A stretch of 26,239 nt of DNA from a virus: IMG/VR virus record IMGVR_UViG_3300030012_004288, positions 7,857 through 34,095 of that record; one strand, given 5' to 3'. Below the pieces are notes generated by a model. It did not search any database and was not told the origin of the DNA. It worked only from the letters and a program-made list of their open reading frames with translations. A program made the position numbers and the translations under genes. Numbering within the stretch: position 1 is the first letter of the stretch; each line of letters starts with the position of its first letter. Shown here piece by piece: positions 7,699 to 26,239 of this stretch.

Positions 7699-9378
7699 AT
7701 GAATGTTCCCCAAGAAATGTTAGATGATTTTAGAAATCACATGTGGGCTTGTTTTAAGTATTTAGGATTGGGCGAACCCACACCAGCGCAGTACGCAATG
7801 GCAGATGCTTTACAGAGTGGAGCTAAAGATATGCAGCTTCAGGCGGGCCGTGGTTTTGGTAAATCAGTTATCACTTCTTGTTTAGCATCTTGGTTTCTTC
7901 TTAAAGATCCAAATAGCACCATTATGGTTGTTTCTGCTACTGGACAAAAAGCAGTAGAGTTTATTTCTATGACCAGACGAATTATTGACTTAGTTCCTTA
8001 TTGTTTTAACATGAAGCCGGGAGAAGGAACTATTGATAATGCTTTTTCTTTTAATATACAAAATAGAACAAAAATTGGACAAGATAGATCTTGCTATGCT
8101 AGAGGTATTACTGGACAAATTACAGGATCTCATGCTGATTATTTGATTTTTGATGATATTGAAATAGAGGGGAATTGTGAAACAACTCAAGCTAGACATA
8201 AGCTACTTAATAAAGCCCTTGAGGCAGAGCAGATTAGGAATGTTGGCGGCAGGGTTATCCTTCTAGGAACCCCTCAAACTAAAGATTCAATTTATAATAT
8301 CCTGAAGGAAGGATACCCTGTTGTCAAATTCCCTGCTATTATGCCTGATCCAAATATCCCATCTGAAATTGAAGATGTATCAGAATGGATTAAGTCTTTG
8401 CAAATCGAGCCGGGAGAGCCTACTCAACCAGAAAGATTTAGCAAAGAGGTCTTAATGGAAAGACAAGCTAAAGTAGGACCAACTCTTTTTGGACTACATT
8501 ATAAGTTAGATACAAGTCTAGCAGATGCCGGAAAGTACCCTCTTAAACTAGAGGATTTGGTAGTATTAGATTTTAATCATGAACTGGTTCCAGAAAAAGT
8601 AGTATGGGCCGCTTCTACTGAAAATAAAAAAGTACCCTCATTTGGCATGTCGGGAGATAAAGTATACGAGCCTATGTGGATCTCTGAGAGCTTCATAGAG
8701 CCACAGCAGAAGTTTATGTTCGTAGACCCTTCGGGACGCGGCAAAGACGAGACGGCCTATTGTGTGGCCTCTACATCCTGTGGATACATATTTATCCATG
8801 AACTAAGCGGCATGGAGGGTGGATATGAAGAGGCTGTTTTAAAGAAGATCTGTAAAATAGCTCTAGAAAACGATGTTCAAGCAATTATAGTAGAATCTAA
8901 CTATGGCGATGCTATGTTTAATAAGCTTCTAATTCCTGTAATGCAAAAGATTTGTCCTGATATTGGTCTTATGGAAGAAAAAGTTACAGGAGCAAAAGAA
9001 GCAAGAATTGTTAGAATTTTAGAACCAGTAATGTCTCAACATCGTCTTTGTTTTAATACAAAAGCTATTAAGGAAAAAGAAACACAAATTCAAATTACTC
9101 GCTTAACAGAACGAAGAGGAGCTTTGGCACATGATGACCGGGTTGATGTTTTGTCCTTGGCCGTTAATCAATGGAAAGATCATCTCACATATGATGTTGA
9201 CGCATTGATTGAAAAGAACCAAGAAAAAGAATCTATGAAAATTGTTGAAGGATGGATGTCCGAAGATAGAGTTGGTAATTTATTTGGAGACAAAATCTCA
9301 GGGGGTTATCGTTATGTTGATAGAAAACGGGCCGACCTAAGACATAGACCTATTCTTAGGGGCCGAAGGAATAGATAA
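7699..9378 (+). CDS. terL: Terminase large subunit (T7 gp19-like packaging ATPase/nuclease), 559 aa
   Basis: This is the DNA-packaging motor: an N-terminal ATPase pumps DNA into the prohead and a C-terminal RNase H-fold nuclease cuts concatemers. Walker A is AGRGFGKS (residues about 49-56). Walker B is LIFDDIE (150-156). The coupling motif is VILLGTPQ (187-194). In the nuclease domain the acidic residues are D344 in FVDPSGRGKDE, E400 in IIVESNYGD and D481/D484 in HDDRVDVL. The length matches T7-type large subunits (about 590). AAGGAA (7688-7693) supports ATG 7699. The stop overlaps the next start (TAATG). Codons around 8640-8830 are locally richer in G+C than the rest of the gene. Confidence 0.95.
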   Translation: MNVPQEMLDDFRNHMWACFKYLGLGEPTPAQYAMADALQSGAKDMQLQAGRGFGKSVITSCLASWFLLKDPNSTIMVVSATGQKAVEFISMTRRIIDLVPYCFNMKPGEGTIDNAFSFNIQNRTKIGQDRSCYARGITGQITGSHADYLIFDDIEIEGNCETTQARHKLLNKALEAEQIRNVGGRVILLGTPQTKDSIYNILKEGYPVVKFPAIMPDPNIPSEIEDVSEWIKSLQIEPGEPTQPERFSKEVLMERQAKVGPTLFGLHYKLDTSLADAGKYPLKLEDLVVLDFNHELVPEKVVWAASTENKKVPSFGMSGDKVYEPMWISESFIEPQQKFMFVDPSGRGKDETAYCVASTSCGYIFIHELSGMEGGYEEAVLKKICKIALENDVQAIIVESNYGDAMFNKLLIPVMQKICPDIGLMEEKVTGAKEARIVRILEPVMSQHRLCFNTKAIKEKETQIQITRLTERRGALAHDDRVDVLSLAVNQWKDHLTYDVDALIEKNQEKESMKIVEGWMSEDRVGNLFGDKISGGYRYVDRKRADLRHRPILRGRRNR

Positions 9379-9880: not shown

Positions 9881-10516
9881 ATGCCAGCGTTTATTGCATT
9901 AGGAGCAATTGGAGTTGCCGGTGGTGTCTTTAGTGGCATCTTAGGTTCTCAACAAGAAAAAGCAAATAGAGCTGCTCAAATTGCACAAATTAGATATCAA
10001 AATACTGTTCGTGGAATTCAAACAGATTTAAATAACATTCAAACGTTAGAAAAATGGGGCGCACAGTTTAAACAAGCAAAACTACAAGCCTTAGCAGCAG
10101 GAGCCAGATCTGGACAAAAAAAAGAATATCTTAGACAGGCTTTAGGAAATCAATTTAAACAAGTAGGAAATCAAACATCTTCTATTAATGCATCTTTAAT
10201 TAGTAAGGCAAACGGAAAAGGCCTTAGTTCTTCTAGTGGAACTGTAAAAGCTATTATGAGACAAAATATGTTAAAATCATCTGAGTCAAATGCAGCTATT
10301 ATTTCTAATTATAAAAAGCAGATAAAAAATATAGACTCTGAGCTTGCTGGTTCTATTAGTTCTGCTCAGTTTTTACAGCCTGCATTACAAGAATTTTTTG
10401 CCGCCTCTGAAGATATTCCAGATAATAGTGGATCAATATTAGCTGCTGGTATTGTAAATGGTATTGTGGGCGGCGTTAGTACCGGACTTAGTACAAAGCT
10501 ACAAACTGAGGGATAA
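9881..10516 (+). CDS. Internal virion protein, T7 gp14-like, 211 aa
   Basis: The product has a hydrophobic Gly/Ala-rich N-terminus (residues about 3-22), a long Gln/Ala/Lys-rich helix (RAAQIAQIRYQN onward), and a hydrophobic Gly-rich C-terminus (AAGIVNGIVGGVSTGLS). This is the layout of T7 gp14 (196 aa), the ejected protein that forms a channel in the outer membrane. The gene order, directly before very large gp15/gp16-like genes, supports the call. AAGGAG lies 8-13 bases before ATG 9881, which begins two bases after the previous stop. Sequence similarity to T7 itself is low, so the call rests on layout and context. Confidence 0.65.
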   Translation: MPAFIALGAIGVAGGVFSGILGSQQEKANRAAQIAQIRYQNTVRGIQTDLNNIQTLEKWGAQFKQAKLQALAAGARSGQKKEYLRQALGNQFKQVGNQTSSINASLISKANGKGLSSSSGTVKAIMRQNMLKSSESNAAIISNYKKQIKNIDSELAGSISSAQFLQPALQEFFAASEDIPDNSGSILAAGIVNGIVGGVSTGLSTKLQTEG

Positions 10517-10518
10517 CA

Positions 10519-11604
10519 ATGACTAAAGAAGAATCTTTACAAAAACTTGAAGAAATTGCTAGTGAGTCTGGGCAACAAAACGCAGATTATAATACACTGG
10601 ATTTACAACTAAAACAACACACTTCCAATGTTAGCATTAAAAAATCAGAAGAACTAGCTCAACAGGTTCAACGTCTATATCCAGAAGATCGACAAAAGGC
10701 TTTTGATACATGGAATGCCGGTACAAGAGACTTTGATTTGAACCCAGCAACAAAAGAATATTATTGGAAGACTTATGAAAAACTAAGTCCAGATCCTTCA
10801 TTTTATAAAGAAGGATTATCAACTCAAGTTAAAGATAAATTAAGAAAACTAAAAACTACATCTGAAAAAGAATTTTATATCAGAGACAATCTTAACAAGT
10901 GGCCCAACTGGCTTTCTTCTCAGTACGAGGCTTCTCTTGCTGGTTTAATGATGGTAAATCAAACAAAAGACATGCTAAAGGGAGAGGTGTCTTATAGAGA
11001 AAATACTTTAGATAGAGTAAACACCCTTTTACAAAATTCTGATCTTGGTTCAGATATCAATGAAGATGATCATGTTCAAGATATATTAAAATTAGAAACA
11101 ATGGGATTTCTAGAAGGAGCTACTATTTATGATGGAAGAATTGGAGTACTAAATAAAGAAAATGAGTTCCAACCAGCTTGGTCAATAAAAAGTTCTAAAG
11201 AAATATCAGAAGAAGTTCCTCAACCTCTACCTGCCGAAGCTTCCTTTTTAAGAGATTCTGTTCTTCCAGAAATAAAAGACTTAGTATCTGTTAATTTAAA
11301 TAACTCAAGAAATAAGATTAAAGAACAGAACGAAGAAATTAAATTTATTATGTTAAATGAAATAAGCCAAGGAAATATTTCAATGGATAAGTGGGGAGAC
11401 GTAGCCTCAATGATTGAAGAACCGCAAGAAGATAGCATTGGCTCTCTTATGTTTCTATTTAGCGAAGGAATCAAAGGAATGATTAGACAAGCTGAAGAAG
11501 AAACTGATGAACCCATGAAAGAAACTGAAATTAATGACATGATTATGCTTGCTTTTATCAAGTATGCTAATCTTTTTGGAGAACTATATAATGGCGAAGC
11601 GTAA
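10519..11604 (+). CDS. Hypothetical virion-module protein, 361 aa
   Basis: The start at 10519 follows the previous stop by two bases, with a modest GAGGGA ribosome site. The product is acidic, largely helical and cysteine-free, with repeated Leu/Lys/Glu heptad-like stretches (EESLQKLEEIASES at the N-terminus; ENTLDRVNTLLQ mid-protein) and no membrane segment. Its position between the gp14-like and gp15-like genes suggests an internal core component or a scaffold or assembly helper for the core. T7 has no gene in this slot. The 3' end overlaps the next gene by 14 bases. No known family recognised. Confidence 0.75.
   Translation: MTKEESLQKLEEIASESGQQNADYNTLDLQLKQHTSNVSIKKSEELAQQVQRLYPEDRQKAFDTWNAGTRDFDLNPATKEYYWKTYEKLSPDPSFYKEGLSTQVKDKLRKLKTTSEKEFYIRDNLNKWPNWLSSQYEASLAGLMMVNQTKDMLKGEVSYRENTLDRVNTLLQNSDLGSDINEDDHVQDILKLETMGFLEGATIYDGRIGVLNKENEFQPAWSIKSSKEISEEVPQPLPAEASFLRDSVLPEIKDLVSVNLNNSRNKIKEQNEEIKFIMLNEISQGNISMDKWGDVASMIEEPQEDSIGSLMFLFSEGIKGMIRQAEEETDEPMKETEINDMIMLAFIKYANLFGELYNGEA
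11578..11581 (+). promoter_or_regulatory. Shine-Dalgarno GGAG deciding the start at 11591
   Basis: GGAG lies 9 bases before ATG 11591. The upstream in-frame ATG at 11549 lacks a comparable site and would overlap the previous gene by 56 bases. I therefore start the gp15-like gene at 11591 (MAKRNF). Confidence 0.6.
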
Positions 11605-14600: not shown

Positions 14601-14974
14601 AACTTAGAGAGCATCTTACTAGCGGAGATCGAGTACAAGATTCTTTAGCAGAACCAGATTCTCTAAAAGAATCATTAAATAACTTAGGTAATAGTACTTT
14701 AGATTTTCTTGAGGATTCGGAAGATAGAAAACAAAAAAATAGAACAGAACAGAGAGAGTTTAACAAATTTAATTATTATGTATCCGAAAAACTAAAAGAA
14801 AATAGAATGTCTTTAAAAGACAAAAAGGCCATAATGGAAATGGTCCCAACAAAAGCGCAGTTTATAGTTTTATATAATAAAGTAAAAAACAATCAAGAAA
14901 CAGAACCTACCTTTTTAGATTTATATGAATCACTATTAGAAACAAGATCCCTAACTTTAATGGAGAATAATTAA
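11591..14974 (+). CDS. Large internal virion protein, gp15-like by position, 1127 aa
   Basis: Start chosen at ATG 11591. The product is long, strongly charged, mostly helical and cysteine-poor, with no clear membrane segment or catalytic motif. It begins with a Lys/Arg/Gln-rich stretch (MAKRNFMQTPEQRER) followed by a Glu/Pro/Val-rich low-complexity segment. T7 gp15 (747 aa) forms the periplasmic part of the ejection tube; this protein occupies the same slot between a gp14-like and a gp16-like gene but is about half as long again. I see neither a lysozyme nor a transglycosylase signature. The stop overlaps the next start as TAATG, so the two core proteins are translationally coupled. Exact role is inferred from context. 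Confidence 0.7.
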   Translation: MAKRNFMQTPEQRERANYYSKKRRQQVSGLPLIQEQMVEEQFIETPEVVEQEPVFEYATPSMPSSQEVAATFDTGTAGMWSDVVDNITGSIMGVTQDVFEFNAKRKIEKRKLTLDKYSADTAEYDAVAKKIDDAFTIRLEGGNAEIINIPEAIKREKINGMLELSKKIYIQNNGSEELQSSIQEELSARGIEDSFDSLSGQQQLDIMETIFIQSDSLLFGEAIRQDREQQWLDIMAAVEGKDYGKMTENLTKYRDKLNQAVLSQKGLADQEFANDALNNSLSSTNLDLAVVDTAMGGNFDVLENLVTSNGVQAFNIQRNDQGEVVSIGFNGSPEQFMADEQTRNIASLVFAQQLRSQFPSNSIENIPERISLGLKALAAGDTDEPFAITSLLFLSDFDDESIEGLVSRGDKIGGLGINNTDQNRLMTMLTLHKYLGSDEPGKNRDTQRTLNEFDRIWDSKSFNSAYTSLASASDEKGIVSKRQEIIKSFLGRMGIEDEEYDPLAYNFEVGDNPSLGSLMVLLYQINQRTNLSEEQKTNISNAIYNNARAVPIFREIDGERKLVDLQLRNSTDHAIFQMGIKSFDDRVFYEDAAGQSERNDIEDVNIILNNLAPETRRGFDIDELEEATIQALEETKKREMNELDRQRKPVLDPARYRLSTLNYNETVFLMTPSVQQELFDNFPEGSGLVEPNSIENLLANFDMLSVGQRISNIEYSPSTNLSRQERNNANYGSSSFGYGIKSIEFNGEVINVEDSFASRNRTGMVFPSVYSDMYTEDGEVKAGNLPPRPVGRSIAFWKYVTGQTGTMRGAGVDELTTEDVSEKDMRETKILADDPKNYQDILFYQQSPGWFESSVYEWYNWLDEKYEQSEIVYEKAAPIIMETVNQYLSQAETGARVLADVSPEPIRNAIDQTLDNLPDQFSQVEKAITEDLVIAAINSIDEVIEAPGMVADAALREAPKLLSLPNQIVDAVKKSYLQTIRWLGRSSEEQHIDLMMEEASRSSELREHLTSGDRVQDSLAEPDSLKESLNNLGNSTLDFLEDSEDRKQKNRTEQREFNKFNYYVSEKLKENRMSLKDKKAIMEMVPTKAQFIVLYNKVKNNQETEPTFLDLYESLLETRSLTLMENN

Positions 14975-17900
14975 TGGGCATCGGGAATAAATTCAACCTT
15001 CCTCTTCAGTATCAATCACAATACGATTTTGATGCTTATAAAGACAATATCGTTGAGTGGAGCTTTACGAGAGAAAGACCCAGACACTTTTTGTATGCAT
15101 ATTCCGACAATATGAGACCAGATGCTACTATAGATCATATTAAAGATGCTCGTAATTACTCAAGATTAAATGGATTAGAAACTCCCGATTTAGGAGAAAC
15201 TCTATCGACAGAGCTTTTTTTAGGTGCTGAATATGGATTTTCAGGATTTGTAGGAGAAGATGTTGCAGGTGCTGCCTACAGAAGATCTTATCTTACAGAT
15301 ACTTCAGAGAATGTATACGCTCCACTAGGAAGAACAGGAGATAAAGCCCCTGCTCCCACTCCAGAGGGGGCTGGAATTTTTGGTAGTGAGTTAGTAACTA
15401 AATTTACAGAGCTATTTTCTAGTGGTTCTGCTCTTGGTAATTTATTTCTAGGTACTTCTCCATATCAAGATGTTATTGATAACCTAGATTATAGAGAAAC
15501 CGATGAAAAATATTTAGATGCTGCTGGTGAATTTAAGTCAATGGAATACTTTCAAGATACATTCGCAGAAAACTATCATTTAATGTCAACTCTAGATAGG
15601 GTTGGTTTTAGTAGAGATGAAATACTACGAACTAAAAACAAAAGAACTTTAGATTATCTAGTGTTAAGAGCAGTAGCTAGATCTTCGATGGAAGACAAAA
15701 TTGCTAAGTATGATGAAGCCGCTGGTTTCTACAATGGAACTTTTGCAAGAATGATTTTAAATCTTCCCGCTCTTATCTATAACGACCCTGACTTACCTGC
15801 AACTCTTGGAGTAGGTGCTGTAGTAGGTGGATTAGTTAAAATAGGAAAAGGCGCATTAAAGGGCATAGGAAAATCACTATCCAGAGAATTCTCAGAAGAA
15901 GCTGTAGATGGTTTTACTAGACAGGCCTTGCGTCAAAAAACAGGAATGGCTGCTGCTCGTATTTTTAAACAAGCAGGTAAATCAAGTTCATTTGCAAAGT
16001 ATGTTCAAAATGGATTTAAGCTAGAGGCAAATGCTTTAAAAAGATACAAACTATTAGATCTTGGAGCTAAGGGTATTGTTATAGCTGGATTCCAAGGCGG
16101 GGTAAGTGATATTGTATCTCAGGGTAATGTCATTAATGAAGCCGGAGTACTGGGGCGAATAAACGATCAAGATTCAGAATTTGATTACAACAGACTTTTA
16201 ATGGCAACAGCCGCAAGTGCAGTATTTGGCGGTACTATTTCCGGTGTAGCTGGAGCTTTTGCAAGACCACGAAACGCATCAATTGATGCTTCTAGGAACT
16301 TATCTTCTGCCTTAACTGATGTATCAGAAGCCCAACTTGCTGCCGGACGGTCTTATGTAGAAGGAACTCCTTTACTAGAAGATCTTTCTGTATCAAAATC
16401 TGTAAATGAAGCAGAATCTAAACAAACCGTTAGAGATGTTTCTAGAACTGAAGAATCTCCTCTAATTAAAGCGGTAGATAAACGAGATCCAGAAACAAGT
16501 AGATATATTATATCAGAAGCCAAGGAAGATCCAAACGAAAAAGTATCTGATGTTATTAGAACAAAAGATGTTGCTAAAAAACAAAGGTTTGCTGCTAACA
16601 TTGATAAGTCAATTGCTAAGGTTGAAAAAAGACTACGAGAAAAAGCAGAAAAAACCGGTGAGCTATCTGCTAGAGATGCTGCATTCTTAGGTACTTTAAA
16701 AAGACAAGCAGAGAATATTAAAAGAAAAGCAGGTGTTTCTGAAAAAGCAATTGTTCCAGCAAGAGAAGCTTTGGATTCTCCTCAAAAACGAGAAGGGTTA
16801 ACTAAAAATTCTGTTGTGCTTCCTGAACAAGAACAAATAATGTTAAAAAAATCAGGTAAGACACTAAAAGAAAATAGCGTAAAAACAAGAGGAAGAACAA
16901 AAGGAACAATAGGGCAAACATTAAATAGAAAACAAAAAGCTCATGCAAAAAAAGCAATTAAAAGTAGAAAATATTTTGAAGATATAAGCCCAGAACACAA
17001 GAGACTACATGATTTCTTTGAAGAAATGGAACTACCTCCCGGTGTTATTTTAATGTTAAGAGGAGTTTTTTCTAACGAAAATAGTAGATATTTACAAAAC
17101 CTTGTCTACAAATTTGTAGATGATCCTAATGTTAATAGATTAGGATCTTTTGCACCAAGATACGGCGATGTTGATTTAGAAACCCCTGTTACTATAAGTA
17201 AATTATTAGTAAAAGGATCGGGCGATGGTGTAAGATATTTCACAGATGTAGAAATAGCTAAGGTTATAATTCATGAAATTGCTGGTCACGGTTTCATGGA
17301 TACATTTAGTATTAGTGAACAACTTTTAGTTAAAAGAGCATACGAAGATCCAGAAATTAGATCAGTGTTTAAAGAAATGATTTCAGACTATTTTGAAGAA
17401 ATAATGGGACCAAAAGCGAGATTAAGGGGTGAATATGCCATATCTAATGTAGATGAGTTTTTTGCTGCTGTTTCAGAAATGGTTCTTTTTGACAGATATG
17501 ATAGAGTAGGTCTTATTGATTATGCTATGAATTTATCGGTAGGATTAGATACTACAAAACGATTTAACCTTATTCAACTAATATCAGTTATCTATAATAA
17601 GGTAGGAGAAAAAATCTCAGAAGCACTAAACACAGTTTTAATGACAGTTGGAGATTTTGAAGAAGCTCAAAGATTCTTTAGAGATAAAGATTTTGATCCA
17701 GAACAACAAAAGGTTTTAGGACAATTAGCTGATTTAAGAAAAGAAATTGAAGATGATATGTCTTTAGTTGGTAAAGATGATAGGTATATAACCGCTACCG
17801 AATATGTTGGAGCTGCTGTATCAGCGCAGCGACACGCTATGATACAAGTTCTTGACGGAAATTTTTTGAAAAATGAACTTAAAAAACCAGCTTCTGAAAG

Positions 17901-20900
17901 ATCTCCTTTAGTAAATAAACTTTCTTCTATTACTGATAAAGTATTCAATGATGATACTTATACACTAAAAGATCTTGAACGCGAATTAAGAGAACTTGGT
18001 GATCAGTCTAGAGAATTAATAGCTAAAGATTACTCTATAGGAGACTTTCTAAAGTTTGTTCGCCTTTTACAAGATTCTACCTCTTCTTTTTCACGATTTA
18101 TAATAGCTGAAGTAGATAGCGGTGATATTACGTTTAAAGATATACTTAGTGAACGAGCATTAATGAGAGTAATTTTAGATCCTTTAAGATTAGAATACGA
18201 AATACATTATGCTGAATTAAATAAAGGCTTATCTGATGCTGAAATTAAAAAAATTGTTGATAAAGAGATGGAGTATAAAACAGATAGTATTAGACACCAA
18301 CTAGAGATAGTTCAAAGTGATAGATGGGGTTTAGAATTAGGTCATATTGAACAAGCAATGCCTTTTATGGTAGATACTGGTCTTCTTGAATTAATCTATC
18401 CCGGCGTAACAGCAAGAAGAGAAACTGTAAAATCTATAGCTAGATTAAATAGAGATCAAAGAATTAAAGCTTACTTAAACAACCAACCTGATCCCGGCAG
18501 ACGAACTGTTTTAGATAGTAAAGCAAGTGAACTTGTTGAAAGAATTAAAAAACAAGAAGACCTAGATAAAATTGAACAAACTCTTGAAGAGATTGAGACT
18601 GCTCAACTAAACGATCTTACTGGACCAAAAACAAAGTCTATTATTAATAAGGTTCATAAGCGAGGGTTTATTAGCGATAAAGAAAAAGAAGCTCTTCTTA
18701 GACAAAGAGATGAACTAGCCGCAGAGGCAAAAAGAACAAGAGAGAGGGCTGACTGGGAAGATTTTGTTAGTGAAATCGAAACAACACTTCGTTTACAAAT
18801 TGAAAAGAAAATAAATAAGTTTATTGCTAAAGGACATGAAGATCTTAAAATCAGTGACTTAATTCAGCTAGAGAATGGCATTGAAAATGGATTTATTGTT
18901 GTAGAAGATGGAAAACTAAGACGGGCAGAAGTAAAGGTTTCTGAGGTTACAGAAGCAATAACAACAGATAAGGTTATTGAAACATCAAACGAAAACCCAA
19001 ACAATCCAGTAGAAGCTGTATTAGAAAACGTAAATCAAATAGCAAAAGAAACCACAGAAATAATCGAAGATGCAGGGCTTGATTCAGAAACAACAAGAGT
19101 AATTAAAGAAGAAAATATTGCTGATGAAAGTCTTCCTCTAACAGAAGACGGTAAAATTGATGTTGTTGTTTTCTTAGCTAACGAAAAAAATCTAGGAGCT
19201 GTTAGAAGAATTATTGGATCTAGACTAAGAGATCCAAATGATGTTGATGATGCTATTGGTGGTTTATATCTTAAAGCAGCAGAAGAAAGATTTAATCCTG
19301 ATCCTGCTAATACTACAACAAAAAGTCTAATAAACTTCTTGGCTAAAGCCGGTATAAATGATACTATAAAAGCAAGCGAAAAGGTCAGGGGAGTAAGAAA
19401 GAGAAAAACAACAGATATAGATACAGGCGAAGAGGTTATAGAAAAAGTCGCTACTATCAGTTCTTTTGGCGAAGACCCAGCAGCGGCTGCTGTTAGAGAT
19501 CCCGGTGCTGTTTCTCTTAGAGGAACAGAAAGAGGAGAAAAAGTCAAAAGTAAAGTATTTGCAACAGTAGATGATTATTTAGAACAAGGCTATTTTACAG
19601 AAAGAGATGCTTGGATTATCAAAACATCTTTTGAAGCAATTGGAAATAAGAAACTAAAAGTAGAAGAATTACGAGCTAGATGGAATTCTCAATTTAATGA
19701 AAATATAGGCAGAGAAGCGTTTGCGACCGCTGTTAGAAGAGCAAAACAAAAGTTTGCAGAAGGCGATGATATTGAAGTTGATATGAATAAAACTGAAGCC
19801 TTGATCCCAGTCAAAAAGGATACAGAACCCGCAAAACCAAAGGTTGTTGAAGAAGCTGTATCTCCTGAAGATACTGTAGAAACTACTCCTATTTTTGAGC
19901 CAGAAAAAGACACCGTATCTGTTATTGAAAACGAAGCATCTACAGGAATTGTTGATGTATCAGCTAAAGATATTAAAAAGGCTAACACGGAAACAATTAC
20001 TTCTGATGACTCTGTTTCTTCTAAATCTAATAAAAATGCTGTTAAGAAAGCTAAGACTGGAGAACCAGTTGAGCTTACTATTAGTGTAACTAGAACAAAT
20101 ACAAGAAAACCAGCAAAGATAGAAATAGGATCTACAAATAAGAAAAGAGCCGAAGCAAATAGACAGGATGTAGAAAAAGTAGAAACAGGAGAAAAGAAAA
20201 CCACTGTTATCACTACTGCAACTGTAAGACCAGAAAATCCCGTTGTTACAAGAGAACCCATTACAACTGTAGAAGATCTTATTGATTTAATCCCCAATGA
20301 TTTATTAATTGTAGAAGGGGTTAGTACTGCTATTCTTAAATCTACATTACTAAAAACAGTTACCATACTAAGAGACATGGGTGAACTAAAATCAAGACAA
20401 GATCAATATGATTTTGTTATGAAATATCTTAAAGATTCTCATGGAATTGATGCTGTCATTAAGGTAGAGGGAGAAGAGGCAATAATCTTACTTCCTCCAG
20501 ATCTTCCAAGAAATAATATTTCTAATGAAGTTCACTATCCAAATGGACAAGTTAAATCGGATACCATTAAGATTGATGAAGATTCTCAACTTCTAAATGA
20601 AGACGGAACACCAAAACCACTAGACCAAAGAGATGAGCATGTAGTTCAAAATGGAGTAGAAGTTCGTGATGAGACCGTTATTGAAACAGAATCAAGTGTT
20701 CGTGATGTTGAAAAAGATTCTTTACAAGATCAGATTGAATCCTTCATTCTATCTGACAATGAGTTCTTAAATAACTTAGGTGCTGACATTCCTCTCGTAT
20801 CAAGACTTATTGCTCTCTTCCCAGACTACGTTACATCTTTCGACAGTGTATCTAGATTAGTTGGCGGTTTCTTAATGGAAACCAAAAAGATTATTGACAG

Positions 20901-23900
20901 AAACCTAGCTAACTATGGTGATGAAGGTGTTAAGTTCTATTGGCAAACAGTCCTTGAGCTACGCATGGAAAATGATGTTCTTAAACAACGAATTGCTAAT
21001 ATGAAAGAAAAAGGAGAGACTGTTGCTGCTAATCTAATTAGAAAAGTAAAAACAGTAGATGAAATTTATGAATCCGCAGCTATAATCACTACAAAGAAGT
21101 TTAAGGACAAAAAGAAGGCTGCTTTCGTTGCTCCACTAACTCCAGAAAAATATGATCCAGTAACAGGATCTAAAGTCTTTGAAACAGCCCAACAAAAGGC
21201 TGAAAGAGAAGTAAAAGAAATTGGGGGCGGAAGCAAGAAGAGAACTATTCTTAGAAAATTCTTTAATAAGAAGAGCGGAGACAACCACAGATATGTTAGA
21301 GCGCAAGGTCTAGTTGGAGCCGTTTTTGGAGGAGAAGACTCCTCTGCAAGCAACTGGTGGCGAAAGGCTATGACTAACATAGTTCTTTTCGCTCAGGTTG
21401 GTAGTGGACTAAAAGACACAGTTTATTCTCATGTTGATGTTCTTATGGCTCTGTCTAAGTTTGTAGATAATACAAAGCTGCACACAGGACACTTCATCAA
21501 CGGCGGAAAGAGACCAATTAAAACATGGATGCAATCTGACGCTTTGGTTAAAAGAAGAATGGGAAGGCTTACACAAAGAAGAGCTAGGCTTCTTCGATTG
21601 TCTAAAAAAGCGTTTCCAGTTGTAATGAAATACGTCCACGATACAAGAATAAATAAGGGTAAGATAACTAAGGGTGATTTAATAAATGCTCTTAAGGAAT
21701 CTGATGTTCCTTTAGAAAAAGTAAACCAAGTTGTAGATAAACTATTCCCCGCTTTAGAAGATTTTAATCGTGAGCTTACTGATATCTACAGACAAATCTT
21801 TGATCTTCAAGAAGAAACTGGATGGAAGTTCATTAATGAAATTGAAGGATCTGATAAACTAGACCCAGAAACTTACATTCCAATAACCTTTGATGCTAAT
21901 AGAATTGAAGGTAATCTTGAAGAAGTTGTTCAGGCAATGACTAATGTTAGAAGAAAGAGTATTAAAGAAAGAGATACTATCCACAAAAGTCTTATGTACG
22001 CACTTGGTTGGCTACCAAGCACATTTGAAGAGACAGACCCTGTATCAAATCTCTTTAAAAAAGACAGAGACATTGATGGAAAGGCGATTACAAACAACAG
22101 AGATCTATTGAGCAGAGTAGTAGAAACTCAATTAGATTCAGAAAGCTTAGACAATCTTACTTTAGCTAGAACCTTAACAAACCCCCTTGATTCTGTAGGA
22201 GCTAATGAAAGACTATACGGAAGACTCGGAAGAGCGTGGTTTGTTGTAAAACAAGAGGATGAATATCTAGTTGTAAAGATTCCTAATAAACTGGATGAAT
22301 TATCTGTTGCAGATAGAGCAAAGTATCAAAAAGCAGTAGATGGAGATGTTACTGATTATACTCCAACCCATCTTGAGATCCTAAAAAGATCTAAGAATGA
22401 TGATATTATTCAGGCAGAAATGATGGAGCTTCTTTCCTTTAAACTAGGAAGAGGCGTTTATGGTAGTGGAGTAAAAATAGGAGTAAACAATACCCCTATT
22501 CTTGGGTTAGCAGATCCAGCTAAAAAAGGAAGCGGGGTTTGGATTCAAAATATAACCCCAGAAGAAGTTGCAATGGATGGCAGCTTGGCTCAATTTATAC
22601 AAATAGATCCAACATTAACTACCCTTGACTTCATGAACGGAAGGCTCTTTGAGCTACACGCTCAGAGAGAACTAGACAGACTTTTAGGATCTAAGGGTAT
22701 TAGAATGTATGAGTTCTTATCAGAAGCAGAATCAATTGCCATCAATAGAATTGAAAATGAAGGACATTCTCCTAAAGATACTGATATGCTTGTCAAGTCT
22801 GTTAAGAATGGTATGAAGAAGCTTAGAGAGCAATATAGCATGTATTCTCAACACCTTTCACAGATTGATGATGATTATTCATCCCTTGCTGTAAATGCCG
22901 GAACACTGTCTCAAAACTTACTCACATCGGCAGTTAGCTGGGGCTTTGGTGTACTAGCTCTTACAGAAACAATCTTAGTAAAATCTGGATATGGAATAGA
23001 TAATGTTCTACATCCAGCTAATATTGTTAAAGATACCGCCCTACTGATTAGGAATATTCTTGGAGATCTTAGATATGATAGGGCCGCAGATCGAATTGAG
23101 GTTGCTGACACTATCTTTGCTTTTGATTTATTGAATAGAAACAACTCTGCTAGATTCTTATCTGAACTAGATGAAGGAGTTCAGTTAACCTCTGGTCTTA
23201 TGGAGAAGATATTTGGTCCCCGAAGAGGAGCTATTCCTGAAAGAATTGACTCAGGTCCACTGGGGTTTGTCCAAAGGCGAGTAAGTAATCTTGCGTATTT
23301 TGCTAGAGAGGTTGGTTCGCTCCAACAAGTCACTAATGCCAACCGTATGATGGCAACTCCCAAATATACTCGAATGTTCATAAAACTAATAAAGGGTAAT
23401 AAGATTGATGAACTTATTTCTGTATTAGAAACTAAAGAGGTTCGTAGTAAGATTAAAAAACTAGAAGAAGAAGCCGTAACTGATAGATCTAAACAAGCTG
23501 AACTTGTGAAGTACATCAAGGGCTTGGCAAGAGAAGTCGGTGGAATGGACTATCAAACGGTTTCGTCGCTCCTTCAATACGGACTTCTTAATAGAAAATC
23601 AATCGATGCTCTTCGCTTGGGATTCAAAGAGTCAGGACTAAGGGTCGATGGCGGAAGAATTGATCTTATGCAGCTTAACAACTTTGTTTTAGATCTTAGA
23701 ACAAACAAGAGAAAGGTTGAGGGACTTGATCCAGATGTCTTAGAAGATGCTATTGATTCTCTTACTTTTATGGTTGAACAGCTTGTTATTACAAGAGCAA
23801 TTACGGAAACACAAGGTTTAGCTCAGGGAACCGGTGTTGTAGCAAGACACCCTCTAGGTAGGCTTCTTACTTCACTCTTTGGTTGGATTAATGCATTCCA

Positions 23901-24777
23901 CTACAATGTGTTTACAAACTATGGCAATAGAACCTCGCCCAAGTATCTAATTGGTACTCTCATGATGGCAGGCATTGCTAACGCCGTAGCGATGACCTTC
24001 AGACAGTGGATTAGAGGTAGAGACCCAGAAGACATTCTCCTTGAGATGGAAGAAGATCCCCTAAGATTCCTTGCTCTATCCGTTCAAGGTATTCCCGCGC
24101 TGGGAAGATTCAACTCAATTATCGATGGCGGAGTTGCTGGTATTCAGATGATGGTCGGAAGCACTCCCCAGCATCTATTCTCACCATTTGGTGTACCGGG
24201 ACTTGAAGCACTGCCAAAAGCAGGTACTGATATAGCTAGAGGATTCAACAAGACTTACGATTATATTTCTGGACAAAATAATACAACTGGTGTGGATGCA
24301 GCCGCTGCCTTGACTAAATCCGCACAACTTGACGGAATGATCAATAACTCATTCCTTGCCCTCCCAGTTCGTATATTTGAAAGTGCAGATATTATGAAGG
24401 AAGGAAATGCCTTAAGAGAATATCTAGATACTGTTCAATACGCAGAAACCCCATATCAAGATGCCGCAAAGAGGAGTAAAACTAAGTTTAAAATTAATAG
24501 TATTGATAATATTAGAAACTCCAGCCTCAGGGAAGATATGGCAGTAATGGATGCAAAGAGAGAAAATCTCAAGAGGTCTCTTAAGATTAATAGTATTTCT
24601 CCTCAAGAAATGAAAGAGAGAGTACAGAAGAACTTCTCCATACAGACCGGAGACTTCTACAGAAGCCCTCGGAAGGCTGAGATGACCCCGGAGGCCTCTG
24701 AAACCTTAGAATCGTTTAGAGAGCCTTCTAGAGCCTCTCAGAAGCTTGCTGATATTCTAGAGGAGCAAGATGAGTAG
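14974..24777 (+). CDS. Giant ejected core protein (gp16-like), 3267 aa, with metallopeptidase-like and sigma-like segments
   Basis: GGAG (14962-14965) supports ATG 14974. Hydrophobic Gly/Ala-rich stretches lie at about 273-296, 363-385 and 408-430, and again near 2960-3060 (YLIGTLMMAGIANAVAMTF), as in membrane-inserting ejection proteins. Residues 767-772 are HEIAGH, the HExxGH zinc-site pattern, with possible third ligands E828 or E835 in DEFFAAVSE. Residues about 1395-1480 and 1524-1597 resemble sigma regions 2 and 4. About 1600-1800 is a Thr/Glu/Lys/Val-rich linker. The rest is helical. T7 gp16 is 1318 aa and carries a transglycosylase; none is visible here. Size and multi-domain make-up resemble phage large polyvalent proteins. 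G+C rises near the 3' end (24,660-24,720 about 53% by count). Confidence 0.75.
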   Translation: MGIGNKFNLPLQYQSQYDFDAYKDNIVEWSFTRERPRHFLYAYSDNMRPDATIDHIKDARNYSRLNGLETPDLGETLSTELFLGAEYGFSGFVGEDVAGAAYRRSYLTDTSENVYAPLGRTGDKAPAPTPEGAGIFGSELVTKFTELFSSGSALGNLFLGTSPYQDVIDNLDYRETDEKYLDAAGEFKSMEYFQDTFAENYHLMSTLDRVGFSRDEILRTKNKRTLDYLVLRAVARSSMEDKIAKYDEAAGFYNGTFARMILNLPALIYNDPDLPATLGVGAVVGGLVKIGKGALKGIGKSLSREFSEEAVDGFTRQALRQKTGMAAARIFKQAGKSSSFAKYVQNGFKLEANALKRYKLLDLGAKGIVIAGFQGGVSDIVSQGNVINEAGVLGRINDQDSEFDYNRLLMATAASAVFGGTISGVAGAFARPRNASIDASRNLSSALTDVSEAQLAAGRSYVEGTPLLEDLSVSKSVNEAESKQTVRDVSRTEESPLIKAVDKRDPETSRYIISEAKEDPNEKVSDVIRTKDVAKKQRFAANIDKSIAKVEKRLREKAEKTGELSARDAAFLGTLKRQAENIKRKAGVSEKAIVPAREALDSPQKREGLTKNSVVLPEQEQIMLKKSGKTLKENSVKTRGRTKGTIGQTLNRKQKAHAKKAIKSRKYFEDISPEHKRLHDFFEEMELPPGVILMLRGVFSNENSRYLQNLVYKFVDDPNVNRLGSFAPRYGDVDLETPVTISKLLVKGSGDGVRYFTDVEIAKVIIHEIAGHGFMDTFSISEQLLVKRAYEDPEIRSVFKEMISDYFEEIMGPKARLRGEYAISNVDEFFAAVSEMVLFDRYDRVGLIDYAMNLSVGLDTTKRFNLIQLISVIYNKVGEKISEALNTVLMTVGDFEEAQRFFRDKDFDPEQQKVLGQLADLRKEIEDDMSLVGKDDRYITATEYVGAAVSAQRHAMIQVLDGNFLKNELKKPASERSPLVNKLSSITDKVFNDDTYTLKDLERELRELGDQSRELIAKDYSIGDFLKFVRLLQDSTSSFSRFIIAEVDSGDITFKDILSERALMRVILDPLRLEYEIHYAELNKGLSDAEIKKIVDKEMEYKTDSIRHQLEIVQSDRWGLELGHIEQAMPFMVDTGLLELIYPGVTARRETVKSIARLNRDQRIKAYLNNQPDPGRRTVLDSKASELVERIKKQEDLDKIEQTLEEIETAQLNDLTGPKTKSIINKVHKRGFISDKEKEALLRQRDELAAEAKRTRERADWEDFVSEIETTLRLQIEKKINKFIAKGHEDLKISDLIQLENGIENGFIVVEDGKLRRAEVKVSEVTEAITTDKVIETSNENPNNPVEAVLENVNQIAKETTEIIEDAGLDSETTRVIKEENIADESLPLTEDGKIDVVVFLANEKNLGAVRRIIGSRLRDPNDVDDAIGGLYLKAAEERFNPDPANTTTKSLINFLAKAGINDTIKASEKVRGVRKRKTTDIDTGEEVIEKVATISSFGEDPAAAAVRDPGAVSLRGTERGEKVKSKVFATVDDYLEQGYFTERDAWIIKTSFEAIGNKKLKVEELRARWNSQFNENIGREAFATAVRRAKQKFAEGDDIEVDMNKTEALIPVKKDTEPAKPKVVEEAVSPEDTVETTPIFEPEKDTVSVIENEASTGIVDVSAKDIKKANTETITSDDSVSSKSNKNAVKKAKTGEPVELTISVTRTNTRKPAKIEIGSTNKKRAEANRQDVEKVETGEKKTTVITTATVRPENPVVTREPITTVEDLIDLIPNDLLIVEGVSTAILKSTLLKTVTILRDMGELKSRQDQYDFVMKYLKDSHGIDAVIKVEGEEAIILLPPDLPRNNISNEVHYPNGQVKSDTIKIDEDSQLLNEDGTPKPLDQRDEHVVQNGVEVRDETVIETESSVRDVEKDSLQDQIESFILSDNEFLNNLGADIPLVSRLIALFPDYVTSFDSVSRLVGGFLMETKKIIDRNLANYGDEGVKFYWQTVLELRMENDVLKQRIANMKEKGETVAANLIRKVKTVDEIYESAAIITTKKFKDKKKAAFVAPLTPEKYDPVTGSKVFETAQQKAEREVKEIGGGSKKRTILRKFFNKKSGDNHRYVRAQGLVGAVFGGEDSSASNWWRKAMTNIVLFAQVGSGLKDTVYSHVDVLMALSKFVDNTKLHTGHFINGGKRPIKTWMQSDALVKRRMGRLTQRRARLLRLSKKAFPVVMKYVHDTRINKGKITKGDLINALKESDVPLEKVNQVVDKLFPALEDFNRELTDIYRQIFDLQEETGWKFINEIEGSDKLDPETYIPITFDANRIEGNLEEVVQAMTNVRRKSIKERDTIHKSLMYALGWLPSTFEETDPVSNLFKKDRDIDGKAITNNRDLLSRVVETQLDSESLDNLTLARTLTNPLDSVGANERLYGRLGRAWFVVKQEDEYLVVKIPNKLDELSVADRAKYQKAVDGDVTDYTPTHLEILKRSKNDDIIQAEMMELLSFKLGRGVYGSGVKIGVNNTPILGLADPAKKGSGVWIQNITPEEVAMDGSLAQFIQIDPTLTTLDFMNGRLFELHAQRELDRLLGSKGIRMYEFLSEAESIAINRIENEGHSPKDTDMLVKSVKNGMKKLREQYSMYSQHLSQIDDDYSSLAVNAGTLSQNLLTSAVSWGFGVLALTETILVKSGYGIDNVLHPANIVKDTALLIRNILGDLRYDRAADRIEVADTIFAFDLLNRNNSARFLSELDEGVQLTSGLMEKIFGPRRGAIPERIDSGPLGFVQRRVSNLAYFAREVGSLQQVTNANRMMATPKYTRMFIKLIKGNKIDELISVLETKEVRSKIKKLEEEAVTDRSKQAELVKYIKGLAREVGGMDYQTVSSLLQYGLLNRKSIDALRLGFKESGLRVDGGRIDLMQLNNFVLDLRTNKRKVEGLDPDVLEDAIDSLTFMVEQLVITRAITETQGLAQGTGVVARHPLGRLLTSLFGWINAFHYNVFTNYGNRTSPKYLIGTLMMAGIANAVAMTFRQWIRGRDPEDILLEMEEDPLRFLALSVQGIPALGRFNSIIDGGVAGIQMMVGSTPQHLFSPFGVPGLEALPKAGTDIARGFNKTYDYISGQNNTTGVDAAAALTKSAQLDGMINNSFLALPVRIFESADIMKEGNALREYLDTVQYAETPYQDAAKRSKTKFKINSIDNIRNSSLREDMAVMDAKRENLKRSLKINSISPQEMKERVQKNFSIQTGDFYRSPRKAEMTPEASETLESFREPSRASQKLADILEEQDE
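17272..17460 (+). other. HExxGH metallopeptidase-like site within the giant protein
   Basis: The codons at 17272-17289 encode H767-E-I-A-G-H772. This spacing (three residues between E and the second H) is that of dipeptidyl-peptidase III (HELLGH) and of zincin domains I recall in phage polyvalent proteins, rather than classic HExxH. The segment VDEFFAAVSEM about 60 residues later supplies E828 and E835 as candidate third ligands, fitting a gluzincin arrangement. Activity is not shown; it could cleave peptide cross-links, other core proteins or a host factor. Confidence 0.55.
19156..19770 (+). other. Sigma factor-like segment within the giant protein
   Basis: Residues about 1395-1480 read as a region-2-like helical bundle: RLRDPNDVDDAIGGLYLKAA resembles the ECF 'D-x-E-D-LvQ-xxFL' core, followed by INFLAKAGINDTIKA and then a basic RGVRKRK end. 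After a linker with EDPAAAAV, residues about 1524-1597 resemble region 4: TERDAWII, a hairpin, then LKVEELRARW and REAFATAVRRAKQKF, like a helix-turn-helix ending in the typical 'v..RAkqKl'. The usual Gln of region 2.2 is Gly here. The match is by eye only. Confidence 0.45.
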
Positions 24778-24822
24778 AACACTAATAAATAATTGGGTAT
24801 AAAAGAGGGAGATACCTAAGTT

Positions 24823-24834
24823 TATCTATAGATA
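24823..24834. repeat. Perfect 12-bp palindrome TATCTATAGATA
   Basis: The sequence TATCTATAGATA equals its own reverse complement. It lies 45 bases after the giant gene's stop and upstream of the TATAAT candidate, a usual distance for a dimeric regulator site. Confidence 0.6.
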
Positions 24835-24843
24835 CTTATATAG

Positions 24844-24870
24844 TATAGTTAATATAGTATAATAACTATA
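24844..24870. repeat. Inverted repeat TATAGTTA / TAACTATA flanking TATAAT
   Basis: Arms at 24844-24851 and 24863-24870 are perfect 8-bp complements with an 11-base centre. A TATAAT hexamer (24858-24863) sits in the centre, as expected if a repressor overlaps a -10 element. The matching -35 (24835-24840, CTTATA) is poor, so the promoter call is weak. Confidence 0.45.
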
Positions 24871-24974
24871 GATTATTGCTGTCGATATCGCTGGTATATT
24901 CTAAAATAGTACGATATAGGGTTGAAAATAGTTATTTATTTATTTTGTACAATTAATTATGGGGATAATATTGA

Positions 24975-25178
24975 ATGGAACACTTAATTACCATTGCTAT
25001 TAGTATTGCTGGACCTGTTGTTTTAGCAATTATGGGTTTTATGCTTAGGCTTTACTCTAAAATTAGCCTGCATGAGAAAATGCTTGAAGCTCACGACAGA
25101 AGAATTAGAGATATATCCTCTAGATTACAGAAATTAGACGATAAACAGTATTCTATTGTAAAGAATATACCGAGATAA
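24975..25178 (+). CDS. Small membrane protein with coiled coil (holin-like), 67 aa
   Basis: GGGGA (24961-24965) precedes ATG 24975 by 9 bases. Residues about 4-27 form one hydrophobic helix (ITIAISIAGPVVLAIMGFML). Residues about 30-60 form a charged amphipathic coil (HEKMLEAHDRRIRDISSRL). The design is the same as the 60-residue protein at 5718, though the sequences share little beyond the pattern. A holin or membrane accessory role is plausible. The gene is the last with the composition of the AT-rich phage; the sequence becomes GC-rich immediately after its stop. Confidence 0.7.
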   Translation: MEHLITIAISIAGPVVLAIMGFMLRLYSKISLHEKMLEAHDRRIRDISSRLQKLDDKQYSIVKNIPR

Positions 25179-25285
25179 CGTAAAAATCGACTAGGGGTCA
25201 CAAATCTGTAGATACCCCCGCTGTCACGGCGTTCCAGCCGCACCCCCGTTACCCCCCACGACCACTATAACCCTCCCGCCATTGC

Positions 25286-25300
25286 GATTGAGACTCAATC
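25286..25300. repeat. Dyad GATTGAG-A-CTCAATC
   Basis: Seven-bp arms around a single central base form a compact near-palindrome just beyond the 3' end of the minus-strand frame at 25305. The tiny centre suits a protein-binding dyad better than an RNA hairpin, and no T-run follows on either strand within a few bases. Confidence 0.5.
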
Positions 25301-25304
25301 TCAA

Positions 25305-25508
25305 CTAGACGTTTTTCGGTCGATTCGGCGCGGGATGACCGATTTCGGCATCTCGGCGGTTGTCTAGTGTCCCAACCGGGACGACAACGACGAGAACCTT
25401 CCAACCCTCGTCTTCACGAACGCAGTGCCGGATGAAACCGGACGCACCGTCCTGAGACATGGTAACAAAGGCGCACCCGCGCTGGGCCTCGGTGGAACGA
25501 GAGATCAT
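25305..25508 (-). CDS. Possible small hypothetical protein, 67 aa
   Basis: Read on the minus strand, ATG at 25508 opens 67 codons to TAG at 25305. Codons are consistently of the GGT/CGT/GTT/GTC/TCC/ACC type, similar to the gene at 26038, and the product (CAFVTMSQDGASGF, then EDEGWKVLVVVVPVG) looks like a folded alpha/beta protein rather than a shadow. Third-position G+C exceeds first and second positions in the part I counted. Against it: no clear Shine-Dalgarno before the ATG, only one strand-specific start, and a plus-strand frame that is also largely open in the same codon register. I recognise no family. Confidence 0.4.
   Translation of the reverse strand: MISRSTEAQRGCAFVTMSQDGASGFIRHCVREDEGWKVLVVVVPVGTLDNRRDAEIGHPAPNRPKNV
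25359..25388. repeat. Nested inverted repeat (11-bp stem with bulge)
   Basis: GTTGTC (25359-25364) and GTCCC (25369-25373) pair with GGGAC (25378-25382) and GACAAC (25383-25388) around an AACC loop, with a four-base TAGT bulge on one side. It lies inside the minus-strand frame. Confidence 0.55.
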
Positions 25509-25544
25509 GTAGGTGTATGTTGAAGTGCGAGATTCCTATGGGAT

Positions 25545-25593
25545 GCGCCTATCAAAAGCCCGGATTCTAATCCGTGGGCTATCGAGAAGGCGC
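25545..25593. repeat. Nested inverted repeat GCGCCT...AGGCGC with inner AGCCC/GGGCT hairpin
   Basis: The outer arms are 25545-25550 and 25588-25593 (6 bp). The inner arms AGCCC-GGAT (25557-25565) and ATCC-GT-GGGCT (25570-25580) enclose a TCTA loop. On the minus strand the inner hairpin is followed by TTTTGAT, so it could also act as a weak intrinsic terminator for leftward transcripts. I tested it as a tRNA arm and it does not fit. Confidence 0.5.
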
Positions 25594-25727
25594 GAGGTAT
25601 CACGGGGAACGTATCGCTGGGCCTGCTTTTTTCGGGGCCGCGTAAGCCGATACCCTCAAACATATCCGGAGTCTATGGCTACGTTTATCGCAACGCTATA
25701 GTCTCGAACCACGAACAGTCGGGCGAA

Positions 25728-25910
25728 ATGGAATTCTCGCGTCAGGTGCAACTCCTGCAACCCCGCTATGCCAATGGTGTTTTTCCCGATGGTGCGACCG
25801 GAGGTGTCTGCTTGAACGATAGCCGACCATCCTACTCCTCCACCCGTACCGTGACGGACGAGCTTCCTGCGGACTCACATAGCGGTCGGATAGTCGATGG
25901 GTATATCTAA
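25728..25910 (+). CDS. Doubtful plus-strand frame, 60 aa, possibly the end of a longer or broken gene
   Basis: The ATG at 25728 opens 60 codons to TAA 25908-25910. The frame is in fact open from 25524 (128 codons without a usual start) and, apart from TGA at 25521 and TAG at 25365, back to about 25281. The predicted residues (GVYGYVYRNAIVSNHEQSG, then QVQLLQPRYANGVFPDGATG) look protein-like. There is no ribosome site before the ATG. It may be a decayed or recoded gene, or chance in GC-rich DNA. No family recognised. Confidence 0.25.
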   Translation: MEFSRQVQLLQPRYANGVFPDGATGGVCLNDSRPSYSSTRTVTDELPADSHSGRIVDGYI

Positions 25911-25955
25911 CGGAACGAACGACCATTCGTGGTCACGGACCCGTTAGATATACCC
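25899..25955. repeat. Perfect 15-bp inverted repeat with inner hairpin
   Basis: GGGTATATCTAACGG (25899-25913) is the exact reverse complement of CCGTTAGATATACCC (25941-25955). The 27-base centre contains GACCA-TTCG-TGGTC (25921-25934). The left arm includes the TAA that ends the upstream plus-strand frame. The right arm can pair alternatively with 25980-25995. Confidence 0.8.
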
Positions 25956-25995
25956 TTGGCATCCATCTCCGGATGGGTTCCAAGGGTGTATCTAA
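25944..25995 (+). promoter_or_regulatory. Long hairpin before the gene at 26038; alternative to the 25899-25955 structure
   Basis: TTAGATATACCCTTGG (25944-25959) pairs with CCAAGGGTGTATCTAA (25980-25995), 16 pairs with one T-G wobble. Inside, CATCC (25960-25964) pairs with GGATG (25971-25975). No T-run follows, so it is not a standard intrinsic terminator. Because it shares an arm with the upstream inverted repeat, the two folds exclude each other, as in attenuators. Confidence 0.6.
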
Positions 25996-26026
25996 TGTAG
26001 ATATGCTATCATCGAAACAGTCATTT

Positions 26027-26030
26027 GGAG
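26027..26030 (+). promoter_or_regulatory. Shine-Dalgarno GGAG for the gene at 26038
   Basis: GGAG followed by seven bases and ATG 26038. Upstream, TATGCTATCAT (26002-26012) could hold a -10 element, but no convincing -35 was found at 17 bases. Confidence 0.55.
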
Positions 26031-26037
26031 AAATCAC

Positions 26038-26239
26038 ATGACTAACGCTATCGCTCCCGTCCCTTCCCGTCTCTTCGGTCTCGGTGCTAAGGATCTCCTC
26101 GCTTACGCTGCGGATGGTCCCGAGAACCGCGATCAGGTTCTGGCCGTGTTCAAGACCCGTCTTGCGAACAATGTGAAGAATGGCAAGGATCGTCGTGCTG
26201 CGGCTAACAAGCGCAACATCGACCGTGTGGAAGCTATCA
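26038..26239 (+). CDS. Start of a highly codon-biased gene of unknown function (partial)
   Basis: ATG 26038 follows GGAG and runs open to the window edge (67 complete codons). The product begins MTNAIAPVPSRLFGLGAKDL and continues with LAYAADGPENRD and a basic helical segment (NNVKNGKDRRAANKRNIDR). Codons are nearly all of the preferred GGT/CGT/ATC/AAC/CTC/GTC/AAG type, which suggests strong expression in a host with moderate-to-high G+C. That differs sharply from the AT-rich genes upstream. The complex inverted repeats at 25899-25995 lie directly upstream and may control it. I do not recognise the family, and the C-terminus is missing. Confidence 0.7.
   Translation, partial: MTNAIAPVPSRLFGLGAKDLLAYAADGPENRDQVLAVFKTRLANNVKNGKDRRAAANKRNIDRVEAI

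Follow-up and report, generated by a model that had tools for sequence, protein, structure and literature searches.

Genes and composition at the boundary

The stretch of DNA considered here (the window, 26,239 nucleotides, G000:C1:7857-34095) runs up to the right end of a 34,095-base virus record, called linear by IMG/VR, and its main features are collected in Table 1. A T7-like gene set is found across the window, which holds the terminase (37-40% identical to those of the closest isolates), and the relative G002, which holds the connector, primase-helicase, family A polymerase and single-subunit RNA polymerase. The giant protein, whose relatives measure 3235 and 3579 aa, is probably an ejection protein, as judged from its place after a T7 gp14-like gene. 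The 3579-aa relative (L019:2599-13338, in G002) carries an ART-PolyVal (ADP-ribosyltransferase) domain (E 2e-22) that was not found in the window's 3267-aa protein at the same sensitivity. Another long protein of the group (L010:806-6553, 1915 aa), which we take from its position and similarity to be tail tubular protein B-like, is far longer than T7 gp12 (a 2385-base gene).

Table 1. Features of the window discussed in the text
Feature	Position	Strand	Basis
Terminase large subunit, T7-like (phrog_38)	7699..9378	+	E 2.3e-95
Giant 3267-aa protein, probable ejection protein	14974..24777	+	downstream of PF24072 T7_gp14 match
67-aa gene, last late gene before the junction	24975..25178	+	8 related loci
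Conserved element, putative terminus (box 1, spacer, C-tracts)	25183..25257	+	profile match and 40 elements
Box 1, TCGACTAGGGGTC	25187..25199	+	near-invariant in alignment A1
AAT box upstream of the predicted cut	25203..25205	+	invariant in A1
Predicted terminase cut, first base of the putative terminal repeat	25217..25218	.	T3 and S2B ends at model position 38
C-tracts of box 2, CCCCCGTTACCCCCC	25243..25257	+	invariant C columns in A1
GC-rich non-coding leader, read as left genome end	25258..26037	+	84% identical to L002 from 25525
Start of putative first left-end gene, cut by the contig end	26038..26239	+	70% identity over 67 aa to L002 protein

Composition changes abruptly after the last late gene, from 36% G+C (1-25178) to 55% (25179-26239); in 50-nt windows, a value of 26% gives way to 50-68% no more than about 50 nt from the stop codon (25178). 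Measured over 1 kb, the step at 25180 amounts to +18.8 points, against a largest absolute step of 7.6 points elsewhere in the window (sampled at 50-nt spacing), and the part of the record preceding the window is AT-rich all along. An earlier note had described a sharp boundary at 25170-25215 with sparse genes and 57% G+C beyond it: the boundary is real and the genes are sparse, the G+C of the second part being 55% rather than 57%. The first 859 nt of this part hold no convincing gene, since the frames are broken by indels relative to L002, and are followed by a single truncated gene. The L002 homologue of the latter (186 aa) has weak HTH matches below cut-off, and the gene may possibly encode an HTH regulator.

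A conserved element and the diverged contigs that share it

The earlier note saw no shared short repeat at the edge, yet a conserved element of about 75 nt sits exactly there (25183-25257), reading TCGAYTAGGGG(G)TC...AAT, 36-38 nt, a C-tract and then usually NTACCCCC. In the window, itself a training member, the profile matches 25183-25268 (E 2e-16), and box 1 occurs as a sole copy where none is expected. The gathering pattern TCGAYTAGGGGN{5,6}AATN{35,38}CCCCC matched 39 viral contigs, giving with the window 40 elements (36 distinct), and had no match in the bacterial and archaeal genomes scanned; two further candidates (L040, L042), which lie outside the T7-like setting, were dropped as due to chance. 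All 36 records examined carry a single element site and none carries two (double pattern matches arising from a long C-run being counted as one), and a reversed-pattern control gave no site in the same records. The spacing is 37 nt in 30 of the 40 elements, 38 in seven and 36 in three, within the limits of 35-38 set beforehand by the gathering pattern itself; box 1 alone as query retrieved 6 and 24 contigs, all 30 with box 2 at the fixed spacing. When L004, L005, L007, L008 and L009 are left out of the profile, it still detects the element in each of them (E 7e-11 to 4.5e-9).

On one side of the element stand late genes (for the giant ejection protein or the terminase), and on the other early genes. 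G008, for example, has overlapping ends (about 1 kb) and shows the terminase first, followed by the giant protein, the 67-aa gene, the element, ThyX and RNA polymerase, and the terminase stands directly 5' of the element in L035 and L039; another long or cut reading frame precedes it in L033, L036, L041 and L043, and is giant in the last two. A T7-like single-subunit RNA polymerase was found in 30 of 40 records and a terminase in 33, the best matches being on the element's strand. In ten records (G009, G011, G019, G020, G024, G027, G028, G030, G039 and G042) a second, divergent single-subunit RNA polymerase gene occurs about 1-7 kb 3' of the element, and the main polymerase, where found, is a separate gene.

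Could the step nevertheless be the trace of a GC-rich fragment of another organism joined to a phage, in other words a chimeric contig? The size of the step and the place of the GC-rich part at the contig end would fit such an origin. However, a search of viral contigs with the 67-aa protein returned eight related loci (75-97% identical over the matched part), and in the diverged, independent contigs L002 (88%) and L006 (97%) the gene is followed by like GC-rich sequence beginning AAAATCGACTAGGGGTC, so that the junction and both its sides are common to them. Between the window and L002, identity is 82% over -211 to +71 of box 1 and 84% from +338 to the contig end. The element stands about 600 nt farther on in L004, L005, L007, L008 and L009, with one extra gene between, and L003 ends too early to cover its position. 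In L009 a gene located after the 67-aa gene (10146-10742) ends in a dockerin-like motif, DLNLDTVVDGKDLAILLAGW, and L002 shows a similar tail before its 67-aa gene, near 9900-9950.

Moreover, among the 35 loci that extend 400 nt or more to both sides of the element, 33 have a higher G+C 3' than 5' of it (the other five of the 40 being too short on one side); removal of near-copies leaves 24 of 26, with a mean of +7 points. The GC step at the element is therefore a trait of the group, of which the window is the extreme case, and a chimeric contig, which this consistency also speaks against, is very improbable. An assembly mistake or foreign DNA as the origin of the step is ruled out by the recurrence of the junction in independent contigs. 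As for an integrated element, the window contains no tRNA, and no flanking direct repeat pair was found at the edge over 24700-26239.

A transferred block, the other reading proposed in the earlier note, holds in another sense, that of a module moving among relatives and not of foreign DNA. Among 780 pairs, 114 alignments cross box 1, of which 90 are left after near-identical or truncated ones are dropped; ten of these, not independent of each other, extend more than 100 nt upstream, and seven stop at +71 to +73, one at +38 and two at about +805. Identity between L035 and L039 is 97% as far as the element, and nothing is common to them beyond +39. The alignments show a pattern of exchange of the putative left-end module between relatives, since homology is lost beyond the element though strong before it; conservation of the element alone would also stop alignments at its 3' edge.

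Leader structure and transcriptional readings

Part of the leader (25525-26037), non-coding and with frame-breaking indels relative to L002, is strongly structured in its second half (25700-26037: fold z -4.3, 0/100 shuffles), and a comparison with Rfam gave only weak, chance-level matches, with no family at the gathering threshold. Two mutually exclusive hairpins precede the truncated gene at 25899-25995: GGGTATATCTAACGG (25899-25913) pairs with CCGTTAGATATACCC (25941-25955), and TTAGATATACCCTTGG (25944-25959), which overlaps the latter, pairs with CCAAGGGTGTATCTAA (25980-25995). L002 keeps both, with compensating or G-U changes, and together they could form an attenuator-like switch.

What could the element itself do at the start of the early region? 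It might belong to a structured leader RNA with which the early transcript begins (acting for example as an antiterminator or in translation control), with no role in DNA cutting. The spacers do hold more inverted repeats beside the C-tract than shuffles (Watson-Crick score 267 vs 220.7, sd 11.4, 0/300, on 30 non-redundant spacers out of 40), and the C-tracts come just before a ribosome-binding site and start codon in L004, L005, L007, L009, L043, L063 and L065. In contrast, the consensus fold has no covarying pair, allowing G-U pairs does no better than allowing A-C (z 3.3 vs 4.2), the spacing is rigid, and known DNA ends carry the same layout, which makes a leader RNA unlikely. The folds of the spacers have a mean z of about 0, and the window's near relative L006 (element L037) shows no hairpin beside the C-tract. 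Processing of T7 concatemers includes a hairpin step, and the inverted repeats may possibly have a role of that kind.

A replication origin, or a promoter read by the T7-like RNA polymerase of the phage itself, would likewise be in place here. The element's GACTAGGGG resembles the start of T7-type promoters, and A+T-rich stretches lie directly upstream in L033 and L036. This reading is quite unlikely, however, given one copy per genome and a simple 10-mer count over the intergenic sequences of five records, in which none recurred, and it leaves unexplained the 25-nt offset seen at known ends. It is hardly conceivable that the giant ejection protein carries an injected virion RNA polymerase like that of N4 and that the element is its promoter: the hairpin-like spacer would agree with this, as would the 4728-aa frame of G008, which matches PF00940 weakly and below cut-off, but the giants have no family or PDB match and no polymerase signature (motif B), and their comparison with N4 gp50 by hhalign (probability 0.3 and 0.1 percent) showed no similarity. 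The giant protein of the window was rejected as a virion RNA polymerase on the same grounds.

A predicted terminase site and the ends of known T7-like phages

The boundary is very probably the junction of the right and left ends of a linear T7-like phage genome, that is, a terminase cut site with a collapsed repeat, a reading that agrees with the earlier remark that a T7-like genome would be expected to end here. The profile matched isolate sequences weakly, at ends that were annotated or likely, and the isolate ends themselves were therefore read. In all 13 Autographiviridae records read as ends, a run of at least four C begins 25-29 nt from the end: at 25 in Syn5 and S2B (sense strand), 26 in T7, T3, phiKMV, KP34 and JELG-KS1, 27 in P-SSP7, gh-1 and K1F, 28 in phiAB1, and 29 in SP6 and LUZ19. 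The run reaches at least five C in 10 of the 13, and the chance rate of a C-tract at this distance is about 0.5%, the isolates being related and four of them (LUZ19, KP34, phiAB1 and JELG-KS1) having been added after the rule was noticed. Positions in K1F, SP6 and JELG-KS1 were counted by eye, and the ends of K1F, SP6, Syn5 and others were taken as deposited; the respective reports give those of P-SSP7 (PMC3350473), T3 (PMC3896407) and JELG-KS1 (PMC10974468) as experimentally determined. The 13 exclude circular records (RHEph21, YIMV22061), records not cut at the end (CRP-114, HTVC019P), SIO1 (Zobellviridae), whose record end is not established as a genome end and has no C-tract at 25-29 nt, and N4, a control from another family, with C-runs at 14 and 32.

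When whole genomes were scanned with the profile, the known end ranked first in T3 and likewise in S2B, both at model position 38 and with weak scores (6.7 and 7.8 bits), and the top match was the likely end in HTVC019P and RHEph21; the ends of T7 and P-SSP7 were missed. With an ungapped matrix all of the known ends were missed, box 1 (TCGACTAGGGG) was not seen in the ends of the isolates, the relaxed exact pattern matched 0 of 8 isolate records, and blastn with the element gave only chance-level matches in isolates; a blastn match in Vibrio pVa5 was discarded as it falls within an HNH gene. Near the Syn5 end, CCCCCCGCTACCCCCC has a layout equal to that of the window C-tracts, and the CCTTCCCCCCGCTACCCCCC of Syn5 is close to the window's box 2. 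The sequences before the cut are alike in T7 (AAAAATCTGAGTGACTA) and P-SSP7 (GAAATGTCTGAGGTCATA), and similar ones precede the predicted cut in L063 (GAATTTGTCTGGGGTAG) and L043 (AAAATATGTCTGGGGTA); AAT-containing stretches lie 12-18 nt ahead of the ends in T7, T3, P-SSP7 and JELG-KS1. The part common to the element and the isolate ends is thus the C-tract, its distance and a loose AAT stretch. If the cut is placed by T3 and S2B, the offset to the window's C-tract is 25 nt, as in known ends.

From this comparison we infer a cut at the element by the terminase, and a repeat with its length. The terminase would recognise the signal in the concatemer and cut at about 25217/25218, starting a direct terminal repeat that contains the C-tracts, so that virion DNA would carry the sequence from the cut onwards both at its right end, after the 67-aa gene, and at its left end, before the early genes. 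An assembler would keep one copy of the repeat and join the ends, and the GC-rich left-end leader would therefore appear behind the last late gene; the left genome end would then comprise the non-coding GC-rich stretch and the truncated gene. The same artefact is described for P-SSP7, also a linear genome with repeats, where 728 bp belonging to the left end had come to stand behind the last ORF in a circular assembly (PMC3350473); the ends of P-SSP7 were sequenced there, and those of the window are predicted. In a further case, a contig flagged as circular was then found by PhageTerm to have 185-bp repeats (PMC10974468).

More broadly, and with somewhat less than even confidence, the ends of T7-like phages might share a readable code (an AAT-type box, a cut 12-18 nt later, a C-tract 25 nt inside and then NTA). 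In this uncultured group with large genomes the code would have grown into a terminase site that is near-invariant, has a rigid spacing and an inverted repeat, and would also be the seam for left-end module swaps. Should this be right, sequence alone would suffice to locate the physical ends of uncultured T7-like phages, left-end DNA that stands in the wrong position in metagenome contigs could be restored to its place, and terminase specificity would become testable across many different phages. It would also mean that a genome-end junction, and not a chimera, can lie behind a sharp change of composition near the edge of a contig. Among the titles and abstracts searched (older subscription literature being outside their scope), none mentions a shared end motif of this kind.

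In T3 and T7, the packaging signals pacB and pacC flank the concatemer junction, and the element can be likened to them as a junction-flanking signal, by description and not letter by letter. The direct terminal repeat ends of Autographiviridae (T7, T3, P-SSP7, Syn5, phiKMV, KP34, S2B and JELG-KS1) resemble the element in their position between late and early genes, and in a C-tract at 25-29 nt from the end, often with RTA after it; those of T7, T3, P-SSP7 and JELG-KS1 also share the AAT-containing stretch before the cut. Unlike these ends, the element has the near-invariant TCGAYTAGGGG(G)TC box upstream of the predicted cut and, in many members, a second C-tract, and the group that carries it differs from these phages in its longest records (62-82 kb) and its giant ejection proteins.
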